Assembly (NCBI RefSeq): GCF_000379805.1
Contig: NZ_KB903545.1
Coordinates: 69,654-117,261, forward strand
Origin: Lewinella cohaerens DSM 23179
GTDB lineage: Bacteria; Bacteroidota; Bacteroidia; Chitinophagales; Saprospiraceae
Direction of reading: 5' to 3'
Length of the DNA stretch: 47,608 bases
Both the position numbers and the translations under genes were made by a program. The notes below the pieces were generated by a model. That model made no database searches and was not told where the DNA came from. It worked only from the letters and a program-made list of their open reading frames with translations. Positions 21,726-28,161 of this stretch are shown one piece after another; the stretch's first letter is position 1; every line of letters starts with the position of its first letter.

Positions 21726-22571
21726 ATGGAAGAACAAGTGTTGGAGCATGCTAGCTATTATGGTTTAGCTGTAGGAATCCTTATCGGAACGGTTATCCTG
21801 GCAGCCTTGGTAGGTCGTTTTTTTAGAAGCCTCATCAAGCGCTCGACGGATGAGATGAAAAATGACCCTACCAACTATCTGTTTCTTCGCCATCTTATCA
21901 TTGGAGTTATCTACCTTGTTGGTATTGGTGTGGCAGTTTACACAGTGCCTGAATTACGCGGCTTGGCAAGTTCTATGCTGGCTGGTGCTGGTATATTGGC
22001 GGTAGCTGTAGGTTTTGCTTCTCAGCATGCACTGAGTAATATAATAAGCGGGATGTTCATTGTGATTTTTAAACCCTTTCGGGTAAATGACCGAATTACA
22101 GTGAGAGATATGAGTGGTGTTATTGAAGATATAACGCTCAGACATACGGTGATTAGAAATTTTGAAAATCGCCGTATTATCATTCCGAATGCACTAATCA
22201 GTGATGAAATTGTCGTCAATGCAGATTTTGGAGATGGGAAAATTTGTAAGTGGATTGAAATAGGCATCAGCTATGAAAGTGATATCGATTTAGCTAAGCA
22301 AATCATGAGGGAAGAAACTATGGCTCATCCTTTGTTAATTGACAATCGTAATGCAGAACAAATTGCTGCCGGTGAGCCCGTTGTGATGGTAAGGTTGTTG
22401 GCTTTACAGGATTCCGGGATATTGTTGCGTGCCTGGGCCTGGACAGAAGGTCAAGCTGATTCCTTTGTTTTAGGCTGTGATCTTTACGAAAGTATTAAGA
22501 AGCGTTTTGATCGGGAAGGCATTGAAATTCCTTATCCACACCGGACGATTGTTCAGAAAACAAAATCGTAG
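21726..22571 (+). CDS. mscS: MscS-family small-conductance mechanosensitive channel
   Basis: 281 residues, close to the E. coli MscS length. Transmembrane helices lie at about 12-35, 58-80 and 86-105. The pore helix is LASSMLAGAGILAVAVGFASQHALSNIISG, rich in Ala/Gly as required for the MscS gate. The beta domain follows with FKPFRVNDRITVRDMSGVIEDITLRHTVIRNFENRRIIIPNA, the family signature. An inner-membrane homo-heptamer, it releases solutes on hypo-osmotic shock. Its TAG stop shares one base with the GTG start of corA, so both are cotranslated. Confidence 0.92.
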   Translation: MEEQVLEHASYYGLAVGILIGTVILAALVGRFFRSLIKRSTDEMKNDPTNYLFLRHLIIGVIYLVGIGVAVYTVPELRGLASSMLAGAGILAVAVGFASQHALSNIISGMFIVIFKPFRVNDRITVRDMSGVIEDITLRHTVIRNFENRRIIIPNALISDEIVVNADFGDGKICKWIEIGISYESDIDLAKQIMREETMAHPLLIDNRNAEQIAAGEPVVMVRLLALQDSGILLRAWAWTEGQADSFVLGCDLYESIKKRFDREGIEIPYPHRTIVQKTKS

Positions 22572-23659
22572 TGAAACCTAGCAAGCAAAACAAACAGGCC
22601 CGTAGGGATAATAAGCGCAAAAAACTGGGACAACAACCCGGTGCCGTTATTTTTACAGGCGAACGCAAGGTGGAACAAGTAAAGATTCACTACCTCGAGT
22701 TCAATGAATCAACTTTTAATGAACAAGAAGTTGATAATCGTTCGGTTACCAATTTCCATGCCCCGGTACCCGAATATATCCAGTGGTATGATGTAAGGGG
22801 AATGCATGATACGGAGTTGATTGAAGAGTTCGGAAAGGTGTTTAATATTCACCCGCTAGCTCTCGAAGATATTGCCGATACCACCCAGCGGCCTAAGCTG
22901 GACGAATACCCTAATGGGATAATGATCTCTCTCCGGGCGCTGCATTTTGATCAGGAGGCTCGCAAAATGAGTTACGAACAGGTTACCATCTACCTGGGGG
23001 ATGGCTTTTTAGTTAGTTTTCAAGAGTCGGAGACGGATTTATTCGCCGACATTCGCCAACGTATTCGCGAAGAAAAAGGAAGGGTACGAAAGAAAGGCGC
23101 TGATTACTTGGCTTACGCCTTAATGGATGTTGTTACGGACCGCTACTATTTGGTTATTGATGAAGTAGAGATCGCGATTGAACAAATTGAAACCGCTATT
23201 CTTAAAGATGCGGATCGTGAATTGAAAGGCCAAATTCATGACCTTAAGCAGGAGATGTTACTGGCGCGTCGTTCTATTGCTCCTTTGCGTGAAGTCGTAG
23301 GAGGCTTCGACCGATTATCAAATAACATGGTAACGGAAGATACGTTAGTCTACCTACGAGATTTGCGTGACCACGTTGTTCAGGTCACCGACTTGGTAGA
23401 AACTTATCGCGATATGCTCAATAGTTTACATGACCTCTACCTGTCAGAGTTGAGTTTCAGGATGAACAATGTCATGCAAGTGCTCACCATTATTTCTACC
23501 ATCTTTATTCCCCTGGGTTTTTTCACAGGCCTGTACGGGATGAATTTCGAGTATATCCCAGAGTTGGGTTGGCCCAATGGCTATTTTTACCTACTTAGTG
23601 TCATGGGCGTGATGGTACTGGGAATGCTGTGGTATTTTCAGCGCAAGAAGTGGTTTTGA
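22571..23659 (+). CDS. corA: CorA-family magnesium/cobalt transporter
   Basis: 362 residues with a GTG start that overlaps the mscS stop by one base. A large N-terminal cytoplasmic domain (EYIQWYDVRGMHDTELIEEFGKVFNIHPLALEDIADTTQRPK) is followed by a long helix and two C-terminal transmembrane helices. The hallmark GMN motif is at residues 323-325 (TGLYGMNFEYIPEL). Its role is pentameric, membrane-potential-driven uptake of Mg2+ (or Co2+/Ni2+). The basic N-terminus KPSKQNKQARRDNKRKK is unusual and may bind nucleic acid or membrane lipids, or mean a later start. Pairing with MscS points to ion/osmotic homeostasis. Confidence 0.92.
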   Translation: MKPSKQNKQARRDNKRKKLGQQPGAVIFTGERKVEQVKIHYLEFNESTFNEQEVDNRSVTNFHAPVPEYIQWYDVRGMHDTELIEEFGKVFNIHPLALEDIADTTQRPKLDEYPNGIMISLRALHFDQEARKMSYEQVTIYLGDGFLVSFQESETDLFADIRQRIREEKGRVRKKGADYLAYALMDVVTDRYYLVIDEVEIAIEQIETAILKDADRELKGQIHDLKQEMLLARRSIAPLREVVGGFDRLSNNMVTEDTLVYLRDLRDHVVQVTDLVETYRDMLNSLHDLYLSELSFRMNNVMQVLTIISTIFIPLGFFTGLYGMNFEYIPELGWPNGYFYLLSVMGVMVLGMLWYFQRKKWF

Positions 23660-23865
23660 TAGCAGCTTTTTGCTGATAATTCAATAAATGGCCCCTGTTG
23701 GACAAAGGGAAAACCATTCATTACACTATTTCTACCATTCATTACATCGGTTTTTCTCGTCTTGTGGTTACACTGCATCTTTGTGGGCGTTGAGTTTATA
23801 TCACCATTTATACCCGGCCTAAATCTTCAAACCATTTCGCAACGGGTATAGAAAAAACAAGACCG

Positions 23866-25344
23866 ATGAAATCACCCGACATCATTATCCACCGCCCTTT
23901 CTTTTTGTTTTTACTGTGTATAATTTTGGCTTTCCCGCTTTTGAGTAGTGCACAAACCGTTAGTACATCGTCCAATTCCATTACCATAAACGAGGACAGT
24001 AAACAGCGCCAAAAGTTTACGATCTGCCGTAACGGTACGAACTTTAGCGTTGAGTACGAAGGCTACATTACGCTTTCAGACGATGACCGTGACGTTGTCG
24101 CTATTTCAGCCGGAGGCTACTTGAAGGTTAGCAAGTCTGCTTTTGGCTCAAAGCGTCGTGTGCAGATTGAGGCAGATCGCTCTGGTAATCTGATTCGTAA
24201 ATATTACGTAGGTTGGTCGCAGAAGGATTATGAACCAGAAGGCCGCACTTGGTTGGCCGAGATCCTGCCCGTAGTAGTACGTTCCAGTACGCTGGCTGCC
24301 GAAGATCGGGTTGATCGTATCTACAACTCTGGAGGCATCACAGCTTTTACACAAGAGGTCCAAAAGTTGGAAGGTGATTATGTGAAAGCTGCTTATCTGA
24401 AATTGATCCTATGTAAATCACTTCAGGAAAATGAAATCAATCAAGTCGTTCAGTTAATGGGAACCGAAATTGAATCAGATCATTATCTATCTGAATTATT
24501 GATGGATAATATTTCTGTACTTCTTAAAAATCCGGCCCGTCTATCGTCTTTCAAAGCTGCAGTAGCAAAAATTGATTCCGATCACTATTCCAATGAGGTT
24601 TTCCAAAAGGTAAACCGTTCTTCTGAAGTAAGTGATGCCTTGCTCATTGATCTCCTTAGTGCTGCGGATAATATCCAATCCGATCACTACCTTTCTTCCG
24701 TACTCATTGATGTGTTGCGCTACCGCGATTTAAGTAACTCAGGGTTGGATCAATTGCTGAAAGTCAGCCGTGGTATTCAATCAGACCACTACCTCAGCGA
24801 AGTTCTAAAGGACGCGATTCAGGAGACCAACCTCAGTAGCCAGTCGTTTAGAGCGTTAGCAGAAGCATTACGAACAGTCGAATCTGATCACTACAGTTGT
24901 GAAGTGGTAAAGGCCATGTCTGGTCGCGAATTATCTAAAGAAGATTTAAGCCTTTTGCTCACCGTGATGGGGGAAGAGATTGAATCCGATCATTACCTGA
25001 AGGAAGCGCTTGTCCATGTACTTCGTAAGCAAGATGCCAGTCGCATACCTATTACTTCCTTCTTGAAAGCCGTAGGCACAGTTGGTTCTGGAAATTACAG
25101 TATGGAAGTAATGAAAGAAATCGGACGTTCCACCAACTTGTCTTCCCTTTCGGATGCGCAAGTCATTGAAATTCTCCGGGCATGTGGCAAAATTGATTCT
25201 GATCATTATCTTACAGAAGCTCTAAGTGCTTTTGCTGCTGAGGCTAAGCGTCGTGGAGGTAGTGTGAAAGAAGCTTACTTGCAAGTAGCCGGGAATATAT
25301 CTTCCGAAACGTACTACGGACGGGCTGCGAAAGCTGTCAACTAA
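23866..25344 (+). CDS. Secreted SDHY-repeat protein, first gene of a LytS/LytTR operon
   Basis: 492 residues. The N-terminus contains a signal peptide ending LLSSAQ (about residue 30). Residues 31-130 look beta-rich (NSITINEDSKQRQKFT, DVVAISAGGYLKVSKS, RRVQIEADRSGNLIRKYYVGW). Residues 170-490 are an alpha-helical repeat: S/G-D-H-Y-type motifs occur at 204, 238, 272, 306, 340 and 374, exactly 34 residues apart, with degenerate copies at 170 (GDYV) and 408 (SGNY) and later ones at 444 and 480. Each motif is followed by (L/S)xEVL-like helices. From memory, similar SPGGYLxI plus SDYxxxxL arrangements occur in regions attached to M56/BlaR1-like proteins. Twenty bases separate it from the kinase gene, so it may sense a signal for it. 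Confidence 0.8.
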   Translation: MKSPDIIIHRPFFLFLLCIILAFPLLSSAQTVSTSSNSITINEDSKQRQKFTICRNGTNFSVEYEGYITLSDDDRDVVAISAGGYLKVSKSAFGSKRRVQIEADRSGNLIRKYYVGWSQKDYEPEGRTWLAEILPVVVRSSTLAAEDRVDRIYNSGGITAFTQEVQKLEGDYVKAAYLKLILCKSLQENEINQVVQLMGTEIESDHYLSELLMDNISVLLKNPARLSSFKAAVAKIDSDHYSNEVFQKVNRSSEVSDALLIDLLSAADNIQSDHYLSSVLIDVLRYRDLSNSGLDQLLKVSRGIQSDHYLSEVLKDAIQETNLSSQSFRALAEALRTVESDHYSCEVVKAMSGRELSKEDLSLLLTVMGEEIESDHYLKEALVHVLRKQDASRIPITSFLKAVGTVGSGNYSMEVMKEIGRSTNLSSLSDAQVIEILRACGKIDSDHYLTEALSAFAAEAKRRGGSVKEAYLQVAGNISSETYYGRAAKAVN

Positions 25345-25364: not shown

Positions 25365-26372
25365 TTGAAACGCCAATTGTTGATTCTATTCCTGGGTAGC
25401 CTCACCGGCCTGTTTCTACGTTTCCTCTTGAGTGGAGACCTGGAGCAGGCCGGTGCTCACCAACCCCTCTGGTGGCCCTGGATCGTTTGGGGAATACTGT
25501 TGGCTTATGGTGTTTTTTACTTGTCCCGACAGCTCGACCGTTGGCTAGACTGGCACCAACAACCGGGCTTGCGTTGGCTACTCGGTTGGATAAGTAATAC
25601 CATAGTGGCGTTTGCTTTTGGCTGGCTGGGATTGCGATTTTATGCCTTGTTCACCGGTTTGCCTGTGCTCACCTGGGCGACGTTCTCTCCCTTGTTGATC
25701 AAGACTGCGCTTATTCTATTGCTGCTGGTTCTGCTGTATACCGTCGTTTATTTTGCCCTCTATTCCTATCGTTATTATGGTAAAATTAAACTGGCGGGGC
25801 TTCGTCATGAGAGGGCACAAATGGACTTACAGTGGAAAGCCCTGAGTAATCAGTTGCAGCCCCACTTTTTATTCAATAGCCTCAATACTATTTCTGCCTT
25901 GGTACACGAAGACGAGCAGCGTGCAGAACAGTTTATTCGCCGTCTGGCACATGCTTATCAGTATACTTTAGAGACTTACGGGAAAAATTTGGTACCTCTG
26001 AAAGACGAATTGCAGTTTGTACAATCTTATTATTACCTGCTAAAAACCCGCTTCGCAGATCATCTGAACATTGAATTAGATGTGGCAGCAAGCACCGACC
26101 ATCTCAAGGTGCCGCCACTAGGGGTGCAACTCTTGGTAGAGAACGCGATTAAACACAATCGCCTGGGGGCAGGGAAAATACTCCGTATCAAAATCCTGAC
26201 AAACGAAGATTGGCTATGGGTGATCAATAATACAAATGAAACCTCCGAAGAAAAGGAATCCTTTGAGGTAGGATTGGCCAACCTCAAGGCTCGCTACGAG
26301 TTATTATCTGAACGAAAAGTTGTGGTCAGAAAGGAAGATCAATTCATCGTTAAAATCCCCCTTTTACGATGA
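25365..26372 (+). CDS. LytS-type sensor histidine kinase
   Basis: 335 residues. The only plausible start is TTG at 25365, because a hydrophobic helix begins at once (QLLILFLGSLTGLFLRFLL) and no upstream ATG is in frame. Four membrane helices lie within about 4-22, 36-54, 75-95 and 108-134. The His_kinase (PF06580-type) domain has the phospho-acceptor motif QLQPHFLFNSLNTI with His167 and the ATP-binding N-box LLVENAIKHN with Asn260. The C-terminal ATPase part is short but ends with a G-box-like EVGLANLKARYELL. The first kinase of a signalling operon; it should phosphorylate the LytTR regulator encoded two genes downstream. Its stop overlaps the next start by four bases. Confidence 0.9.
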   Translation: MKRQLLILFLGSLTGLFLRFLLSGDLEQAGAHQPLWWPWIVWGILLAYGVFYLSRQLDRWLDWHQQPGLRWLLGWISNTIVAFAFGWLGLRFYALFTGLPVLTWATFSPLLIKTALILLLLVLLYTVVYFALYSYRYYGKIKLAGLRHERAQMDLQWKALSNQLQPHFLFNSLNTISALVHEDEQRAEQFIRRLAHAYQYTLETYGKNLVPLKDELQFVQSYYYLLKTRFADHLNIELDVAASTDHLKVPPLGVQLLVENAIKHNRLGAGKILRIKILTNEDWLWVINNTNETSEEKESFEVGLANLKARYELLSERKVVVRKEDQFIVKIPLLR

Positions 26373-27385
26373 AGAAATTTTTCCTGCGAAAGCCCTTTTT
26401 TCGTCTGCTTACCCCGCTAGTCGTGGGTAGTGTAGCCTACATGCTGATTTTATTGTTCAACAACAATGTGAGTCAGTTACAGGAGGCTTTCCTGGGGGGC
26501 GAACTCTATTTTAGTGCAGGTTTGGCCTTGCTGATACAGGAGGCCATTTTGCAGTGTTTGCGCCCCTTGCTGAAGATTCGTTGGCAGGAAGGGCTCGCCT
26601 GGACAGTGGCAGGTTATGTGATGTTGGCCTTCTTTACCAGTATTTTGCTGGTCGGCTTAGCGGTGAGTTTTTATTACGTCAAAGCACTTGGTTATCAGCC
26701 GGCTGCTTCAGAGTTAATTCTTTTTTGCGGTATTTTCGGTGTGCTTGCTGGATTGCAAATTAGCTTGTACGTCAGCCACCAATTGTTATTTATCAATAAT
26801 GAAGAACAGCTAAAGGAGGAACAGCAGCTGAGGGCAGGAATCATCGCTGATTTTCACCAATTCAAACGAGGGGTTAACCCTGATTTGTTATTGGAAAGCC
26901 TGGAAACACTCATCGTTTACTTGTATGATAATAAAGACTTGGCAGATGATATGCTTGACCACCTTGCCACAGTGTACCGTTATGTTTTGACAGCTCGGCG
27001 TAAGGAGTTAGTGCCTATTCACGAAGAACTTACAGTGCTACAGGAATTGATCGCGTTATTAGGCCATTTGCCTTACCGGAAAATTGCTTGGCAGCAGCCT
27101 ACTGGTTTGAAAGGCCATATCGTTCCGGGAACATTATTACTGATTGTAGAGGCGATTATTCGAAGTAGTATTGTTATTTCAGACCAGGAATTACCCATTG
27201 TTTTGCTGCAAAATGAAAATTCGTATCAGGTAAGCTATCCGTGTTTGGAACGTATTCGGGAGTCACTTAGCTTAGTACAATTGACGCCTGTTGTCGAGAG
27301 TTATGCCGTCTATAGCCAGGAGGCGGTTTGCTTGATTGAAGAAGGTGGCAAGAAAACGATTACCCTGCCTATTATAGAACTTTAA
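26369..27385 (+). CDS. Degenerate LytS-like membrane protein (pseudokinase)
   Basis: 338 residues, ATGA overlap with the kinase gene. Four membrane helices occupy about 12-32, 46-66, 75-102 and 115-140, the same layout as the preceding kinase. The dimerisation region aligns as GVNPDLLLESLETL against the kinase's QLQPHFLFNSLNTI, so Asp172 replaces the phospho-accepting His. The N-box LLVENAIKHN is represented by LIVEAIIRSS, losing the Asn (Ala262). There is no recognisable G-box. It therefore cannot be a normal autokinase. The intact frame and tight coupling argue for a retained function, probably as a partner that modulates the true kinase. Confidence 0.75.
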   Translation: MKKFFLRKPFFRLLTPLVVGSVAYMLILLFNNNVSQLQEAFLGGELYFSAGLALLIQEAILQCLRPLLKIRWQEGLAWTVAGYVMLAFFTSILLVGLAVSFYYVKALGYQPAASELILFCGIFGVLAGLQISLYVSHQLLFINNEEQLKEEQQLRAGIIADFHQFKRGVNPDLLLESLETLIVYLYDNKDLADDMLDHLATVYRYVLTARRKELVPIHEELTVLQELIALLGHLPYRKIAWQQPTGLKGHIVPGTLLLIVEAIIRSSIVISDQELPIVLLQNENSYQVSYPCLERIRESLSLVQLTPVVESYAVYSQEAVCLIEEGGKKTITLPIIEL

Positions 27386-27396
27386 CCCTGTTGTTT

Positions 27397-28161
27397 ATGA
27401 AAGTTGTTATCATCGAAGATGAACCGCTAGCTGCGAAAAAACTAGCACGATATCTGACAAAATATGACCCCAAGACAGAGGTGCTTGCTCAATTGAATAC
27501 TGTGAGTGCAGCGGTTAGTTGGCTCCGACAACACCTGGAAAAGGTAGATCTTTTATTCGTAGATATACAACTGCATGAAGAACTGAGTTTTTCCATTTTT
27601 CAGCAAGTGGAGGTTAACAAGCCTATTATTTTCACGACAGCCTATGATGAGTATGCTATTGACGCTTTTCAAGTTAATAGCATTGATTATTTACTCAAAC
27701 CCATCACGTTCACCCAGCTTTCACAAGCCTTGGATAAGTTCAAGCGCTTACGTAATCAATGGACCAGTACGGATAGTGTGCCGGCCAGCTTAATTGCGGC
27801 AGAGAAAATGGAGTACAAGGATCGTTTCCTTGTTCGTCGGGGCAATAAGATTCAATCGGTGCGCACGAGTGAAATCAGCCACTTTTCGGCAGAGGGAAGA
27901 CTGGTAAGCTTACACCATCTGGAAAGCCGTAAGTACGTGTTGGATTATACCCTCAGTGAACTAGAAGGGATGCTTGACCCCAAGTCTTTTTTTCGTACCA
28001 ATCGATCTTATATCCTACAAATTAATGCGATCCAAGATGTTGTAGTTTATTCTAGCAGCCGCCTCAAAGTGAGCGTTGCAGGGCAGACAGGCAATCACGA
28101 AATTATCGTCAGCCGTGACCGCGTAGGGGATTTTAAAAACTGGTTGGCAGGGCAGGGGTAA
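27397..28161 (+). CDS. LytTR-family response regulator
   Basis: 254 residues from the ATG at 27397; an in-frame TTG two codons earlier is less likely. The receiver domain (1-115) has acidic pair Asp8/Glu9, phospho-acceptor Asp56 in LLFVDIQL, the Thr/Ala switch region IIFTTAYDEYAIDAF and Lys in YLLKPIT. The C-terminal LytTR DNA-binding domain (about 148-250) includes FLVRRGNKIQSVRTSEISHFSAEGR and FFRTNRSYILQINAI. It should bind direct-repeat promoter sites as a dimer when phosphorylated. Last gene of the SDHY protein-kinase-pseudokinase operon, 11 bases after the pseudokinase stop. Confidence 0.93.
   Translation: MKVVIIEDEPLAAKKLARYLTKYDPKTEVLAQLNTVSAAVSWLRQHLEKVDLLFVDIQLHEELSFSIFQQVEVNKPIIFTTAYDEYAIDAFQVNSIDYLLKPITFTQLSQALDKFKRLRNQWTSTDSVPASLIAAEKMEYKDRFLVRRGNKIQSVRTSEISHFSAEGRLVSLHHLESRKYVLDYTLSELEGMLDPKSFFRTNRSYILQINAIQDVVVYSSSRLKVSVAGQTGNHEIIVSRDRVGDFKNWLAGQG

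Follow-up and report, generated by a model that had tools for sequence, protein, structure and literature searches.

The closest described relatives of the locus considered here are the LytS/LytTR systems, of which BtsS/BtsR, in the account excerpted from PMC10653868, combines a PF06580 kinase with a regulator that has receiver and LytTR domains. The direct repeats of LytTR regulators described in the excerpt of PMC6193735 measure 9 bp, are in most cases separated by 12 bp, and serve autoregulation. Two unlike kinase proteins occur together in the Fas system of group A Streptococcus; FasB is reported to form heterodimers with FasC, and the system is described as able to do without the membrane portion of the former and the kinase portion of the latter (PMC12675982, in the portion excerpted). 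Finally, there are envelope proteins that tune a membrane kinase, as CpxP does for CpxA (PMC4160245) and QseG for QseE (PMC12691602). Below, we describe a four-gene cassette that resembles each of these in part, and in which a repeat protein is encoded first.

The cassette, its kinases and its promoter box

The DNA analysed, here called the window, is a stretch of 47,608 nucleotides. It contains an operon-like run of four genes, in the order SDHY repeat protein, LytS-like kinase (HK1), second kinase (HK2) and LytTR regulator, and a direct repeat lies just upstream of the first gene. The features are as follows.

23713..23746, forward strand: direct repeat of LytTR type, in which ACCATTCATTACA occurs as two identical copies of 13 bp, with a 21-bp period, a 9-bp core and a 12-bp gap
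23866..25344, forward strand: SDHY repeat protein of 492 residues (from the translation), probably exported
24007..24225, forward strand: predicted N-terminal beta domain, residues 48-120, common to the aligned family members
24229..25338, forward strand: predicted alpha-solenoid, residues 122-491
24475..24996, forward strand: six SDHY motifs spaced exactly 34 residues apart (residues 204-377); one more exact SDHY is at residue 445
25365..26372, forward strand: HK1, histidine kinase (PF06580) in which the phosphoacceptor His, the N-box Asn and the G-box Gly are all present
26369..27385, forward strand: HK2, conserved pseudokinase (PF06580) by its residues, with Asp at the His position and neither N-box Asn nor G-box Gly
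27391..28161, forward strand: response regulator with receiver and LytTR DNA-binding domains (Pfam)

Gene surroundings were read for 27 further members with a repeat region, making 28 with the window, and the full cassette order was found in 12 of them: the window, L021, L022, L023, L033, L034, L038, L039, L122, L123, L124 and L125. The L039 cassette has one inserted beta-lactamase-family gene, the L125 contig stops after kinase 2 and the L038 regulator is cut by the end of the examined stretch. Seven of the eight closest relatives with a readable flank share the order, L024 being the exception. The surroundings of one member, L020, are cut by a contig end, and five (L024, L025, L026, L111 and L113) have no adjacent cassette, ECF or BlaI/M56 genes. 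Genes like those of an MscS channel and a CorA transporter adjoin the cassette upstream in the window (21726-23659) and in L038, a resemblance taken from Pfam as run on the L038 pair only.

HK1 matches PF06580 with 83.9 bits and has the phospho-His and N-box of a LytS/LytTR-type kinase; these two residues and the G-box Gly are kept by kinase 1 in all 12 cassettes. Kinase 2, aligned to kinase 1, keeps none of the three in any of the 12, and at the phosphoacceptor position it has Asp (seven cassettes), Glu (two), Asn, Gln or Tyr (one each). By these residues HK2 is a conserved pseudokinase. The regulator matches PF00072 (49.4 bits) and PF04397 (65.2 bits), the receiver and LytTR domains respectively. 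A LytS-type multi-helix sensory domain, named 5TM-5TMR_LYT, was not found in the Pfam search, where HK1 and HK2 match only His_kinase. It should be noted that the kinases may sense something by themselves, since about 155 residues with hydrophobic stretches precede the kinase core of HK1.

A profile of HK2 matched 57 of 395 genomes of the class at E 1e-30, with 221-493 bits in the top eight and 136 bits in the next. The repeat-protein profile matched 13 of the 395: eight of cassette type, one of ECF type (G446) and four with the N-terminal domain only. The eight genomes that hold an HK2-type pseudokinase are the same eight that hold a cassette-type repeat protein; the chance of the overlap is 6.6e-16 (eight pseudokinase holders against nine holders of a full-length repeat protein), four of these eight genomes having gone into the HK2 profile and the other four being absent from it. 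Both samples, the 12 of 28 members and the eight matching genomes, show a stable linkage to LytS-like and LytTR genes, whose co-occurrence had been proposed as a check in a sequence-only reading of the window; the pseudokinase nature of HK2 and the promoter box go beyond that reading.

The pattern for the box was derived from the upstream regions of the cassettes and searched at up to 2 mismatches in 13 genomes, namely the 12 cassette genomes and G140, in which the genes downstream of the repeat protein are cut off. It gave 21 sites, 11 of them just upstream of a repeat-protein gene (in 10 of the 12 cassette genomes and in G140) and 10 elsewhere, whereas a reversed control pattern gave 4 in the same 13 genomes; the presence of the box at these promoters is partly circular, the pattern having been drawn from them, but its rarity elsewhere is not. 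At the promoters of the cassette genomes G153 and G342 the box was not found at up to 2 mismatches. With the same tolerance, the 7.3 Mb genome that contains the window has no match besides the operon box. When 3 mismatches are allowed, a narrower pattern picks up one additional site, which lies ahead of another LytTR regulator gene. From the site and its position, it is probable that the regulator feeds back on its own operon.

Seven of the 10 non-operon sites are in G1067 and are direct repeats of another sequence type, ACCATTCAGAACA, with a 21-bp period, five of the seven being perfect pairs; they probably serve a different LytTR regulator, one that has several targets. In L122 (L122:6120-6230) the promoter box falls within the ORF as read from its first start codon, and so the true start of that gene is probably further downstream.

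The predicted solenoid and its row of like residues

The translated ORF has exact SDHY motifs at residues 204, 238, 272, 306, 340, 374 and 445. The spacing of exactly 34 residues that had been read from 204 to 374 is borne out, as are degenerate units at 170 (GDYV) and 408 (SGNY); of two further units placed at 444 and 480, the first is an exact SDHY, but at 445, and the second is a degenerate SETY. Residues 151-492 give 63 self-matches at lag 34, against a best-lag mean of 33.4 and a maximum of 43 in shuffled controls (n=1000, lags 5 to 119), and the 34-residue period is real. Outside the four signature letters, the five units compared in the window protein have a mean identity of 19%. Since six units compared as DNA are 33-51% identical and no two of the seven SDHY copies are spelled alike in DNA, there has been no fresh duplication of the DNA.

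The protein is predicted to be an alpha-solenoid that follows a small beta domain, in agreement with the solenoid proposed from the sequence, and in the predicted structure a helix begins at the Asp of all seven exact SDHY motifs. As a predicted fold, a rod of tandem two-helix units, it is HEAT/ARM-like; as a sequence family it matches no curated repeat model, the Pfam search of the window protein having given no match (best E 0.056, to a model other than HEAT/ARM) and the families matched by 12 members including neither HEAT nor ARM models. The single N-terminal hydrophobic segment, residues 3-34, indicates that the protein is probably exported, as the earlier description of it as secreted implies. 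Small proteins of about 120-130 residues, one each in seven genomes, are the N-terminal beta domain alone, without repeats (L119:5736-6122, L120:5756-6115, L121:5228-5587, L126:6168-6533, L127:6270-6644 and L128:6489-6869 among them); near the one in L119 lies an ECF sigma gene.

Unit parsing gives the signature SDHY in the window, L020, L022, L023, L033, L038, L039, L122 and L124. The other cassettes have SDHH (L021), SDYY (L034, L123) or SSSE/STSE/SSTE/STTE (L125), and in an unrooted tree of the kinases these four sit on four separate branches among the SDHY ones. Signatures outside the cassette are SDYE (L025, L026, L113), SDYD (L111), SDFE or SDFD (L112) and SSGD (L035, L037). The signature therefore varies among proteins and is nearly uniform inside most, which is not a universal rule, because it is mixed at one or two positions in L024, L114 and L125 and is not uniform in L116, L117 and L036.

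Column statistics were computed on 173 units of 23 proteins, L136 not being among them and L036, L116, L117 and L118 having been left out after their parse was seen (2 to 6 weak units each). Compared with label shuffles, identity within proteins is raised most at -1 (z 21), +1 (z 15), +2 (z 29), +3 (z 27) and +6 (z 22), less so at +4 (z 10), +5 (z 7), +7 (z 6), +9 (z 6) and -5 (z 4), and not at +8, +11, +12, -6 or -8 (z below 1.5). The main positions of this row recur when the analysis is confined to the 12 cassette proteins, to 9 others or to one protein per class. In a helical-wheel projection homogenisation points to 244-253 degrees and hydrophobicity to 47 degrees, and since the two are opposite, the row, as modelled, faces away from the core. 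The expectation that the motif residues lie on one face and are not buried agrees with this for +2 and +6, which are opposite the hydrophobic side, on the helical wheel only.

The row may, of course, be purely structural, neighbouring units matching one another for helix capping or packing without any ligand. Ser is at position 0 in 171 of the 173 units, with the helix starting at the next residue, and the S-x-x-E/D variants of the signature fit the helix capping box; moreover, +4, +5 and the hydrophobic +7 (z 10, 7 and 6) also beat the shuffles. However, homogenisation at -1, +2 and +6 is of about the same strength as at +3, the overall direction of homogenisation (244-253 degrees) points away from that of hydrophobicity (47 degrees), to the opposite side, and the hydrophobic positions +8, +11 and +12 are without within-protein homogeneity (z 0.9, 1.4 and 0.6). 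We regard a purely structural row as a serious but somewhat unlikely explanation.

Other loci and the history of the row

Ten further members of the family sit with other signalling genes, seven of ECF and three of BlaI/M56 type. The seven (L036, L112, L114-L118, of 28) follow genes for an ECF-like sigma factor, an anti-sigma-like protein and a small membrane protein. These loci form a second recurrent set, with all four genes present in 7/7, and were assigned as such by similarity to L115; there, Pfam confirms the sigma domains, gives a weak DUF6249 match for the small membrane protein and nothing for the anti-sigma-like protein. In L035, L037 and L136 (three of 28) the family member is the third gene, preceded by BlaI and M56 genes. 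The M56 proteins of two of these (L035:8746-10782 and L037:6983-8785) carry the 34-residue repeat in their C-terminal tails, with scores of 34.0 and 35.4 bits. The sequence-only reading had likened the N-terminal SAGGYLKV region to extensions of M56/BlaR1-like proteins; the association holds for the BlaI/M56 neighbours of three relatives and for the repeat on two M56 tails, but not for the SAGGYLKV domain, as the tail match covers the repeats only. Because the same type of protein adjoins ECF, BlaI/M56 and LytTR genes, the arrangement suggests that a shared input from the envelope is connected to three different outputs.

It could alternatively be argued that the SDHY protein is an output only, an envelope protein or chaperone tuned by the kinases and with no sensing role. 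LytS/LytTR-type regulons such as that of BtsS/BtsR can be very small. BtsS/BtsR activates btsT, in the excerpted account (PMC10653868), and in the present case the SDHY gene is the first behind a probable LytTR box that, with up to 2 mismatches allowed, matches nowhere else in the window's own genome. Against this stand the occurrence of the same type of protein beside three unrelated signalling machineries and the fact that in two M56 proteins the repeat belongs to the M56 protein itself. On balance, an output without a sensing role seems to us unlikely.

The tails raise the further point of what the row recognises. SSGD is present in two of the four parsed units of each M56 tail of L035 and L037, and in nearly all units of the secreted proteins of the same loci. 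The secreted protein of L136 has SSPGD in five units, STPGD in four and SIPGD in one; its M56 tail is below detection in the profile search, and by eye its first repeat-like stretch reads SSPGE, the other stretches being degenerate. This hints, from one change only, that partner proteins share the row. A bolder proposal is that the row is a recognition code, by which the secreted solenoid would pair with itself or with a receptor tail of the same row, units and partners switching together; we consider this speculative and doubtful. Were it true, a self-matching repeat code would be plugged into three kinds of transmembrane signalling.

How the row changes can be judged from the rest of each unit, and the comparison of unit orthology took in residues outside positions -1 to +9. 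One-to-one orthology of units was found across different signatures for L034-L022 (p 0.002), L021-L039 (p 5e-5) and L123-L033 (p 0.001). Since these three switched proteins keep it, their sequences show that the row of L034, L021 and L123 was replaced as a set without re-amplification of units. L125 gave no such signal, three pairs with it not being significant. The alignment behind the three p values picks its own register, and the alternative comparison used the N-terminal index: among pairs of different signature, p was below 0.05 in 45/168 and same-index identity was higher in 138/168; among pairs of the same signature, p was below 0.05 in 33/42. With this index the window protein was not significant against L026, L035, L037, L039, L114, L115 and L123, and was at 0.05 against L023, L025 and L112.

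A uniform signature might also arise if whole units had recently been duplicated or gene-converted. Tandem repeats often expand in this way, the number of units differs between proteins (L023 has 11 parsed units and L022 has 6), and L125, with no orthology signal, may have been re-amplified. On the other hand, units within a protein are 15-31% identical outside the signature (21 proteins, five units each), signature codons differ among units, and the one-to-one orthology across signatures, weaker without the alignment, disfavours conversion of whole units; we judge this origin improbable. The row raises a general and measurable question: by what means do five to nine positions at the surface change jointly in units that have diverged?

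That the Asp/His/Tyr row binds metal ions, as first proposed, is rejected as highly improbable: in the window protein His and Tyr do recur at the same place in successive units, but potential ligand residues are not conserved across relatives, the letters changing among cassette members to SDYY (L034, L123), SDHH (L021) and SSTE-like (L125) and in other relatives to SDYE, SDFD and SSGD, and the predicted helix opens with the Asp, with Ser at the N-cap.

Proposed mechanism and relation to known systems

We favour, with moderate confidence, the reading in which a LytS/LytTR-like signalling system of four parts has the SDHY protein as its extracytoplasmic accessory subunit; the protein may form the outer portion of a sensing system that has not been described. 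The protein would be exported and would fold as a beta domain followed by a rod of stacked two-helix units, with the row of like residues (mainly -1, +2, +3 and +6) running down the exposed face of the second helix. This row would dock on a repetitive partner, either an envelope polymer or another solenoid. We infer that HK1, which is intact, and the pseudokinase HK2 form a membrane pair, on which the SDHY protein, bound or free, would act by contact. HK1 would then phosphorylate the LytTR regulator, which would bind the 21-bp direct repeat and change, in one direction or the other, the transcription of its own operon. Because the regulator would act on the same operon, the SDHY protein would be both the input and a main output of a feedback loop. 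A protein with such a double role has a parallel in CpxP, which is both a target and a modulator. If the scheme is right, a LytTR-type system of Bacteroidota gains a defined extracytoplasmic component and a conserved pseudokinase.

The likeness to BlaI/BlaR1 (M56) operons lies in the gene order of L035, L037 and L136 and in the tail repeat of L035 and L037; the four window proteins differ in having no M56 or BlaI domain by Pfam, and thus no BlaR1-type receptor among them. The HdrRM-type LytTR systems (PMC6193735, as excerpted) likewise have 9-bp direct repeats, mostly with a 12-bp gap, upstream of their own operon, and consist of a regulator and a membrane inhibitor, whereas the SDHY cassette has a receiver domain and kinases. 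In comparison with BtsS/BtsR (PMC10653868, as excerpted), the cassette is without a detected LytS-type sensory domain and adds a dead-looking second kinase and a probably secreted solenoid that is encoded first. The excerpted account of FasBCA (PMC12675982) likewise has two unlike kinase proteins, with a single ComE-like regulator; by its residues only, the SDHY cassette is of this type, one of its two kinases being incapable of the whole reaction, and it differs in that HK2 has lost the phospho-His, N-box Asn and G-box Gly in 12/12 and that a repeat protein is encoded first. CpxP-CpxA and QseG-QseE have an envelope protein that tunes a membrane kinase, as the SDHY protein would do; the latter differs in being a predicted alpha-solenoid of 34-residue units. 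By analogy, the FasB-FasC heterodimer and the envelope accessory proteins CpxP and QseG may each serve as a precedent for a part of the model.
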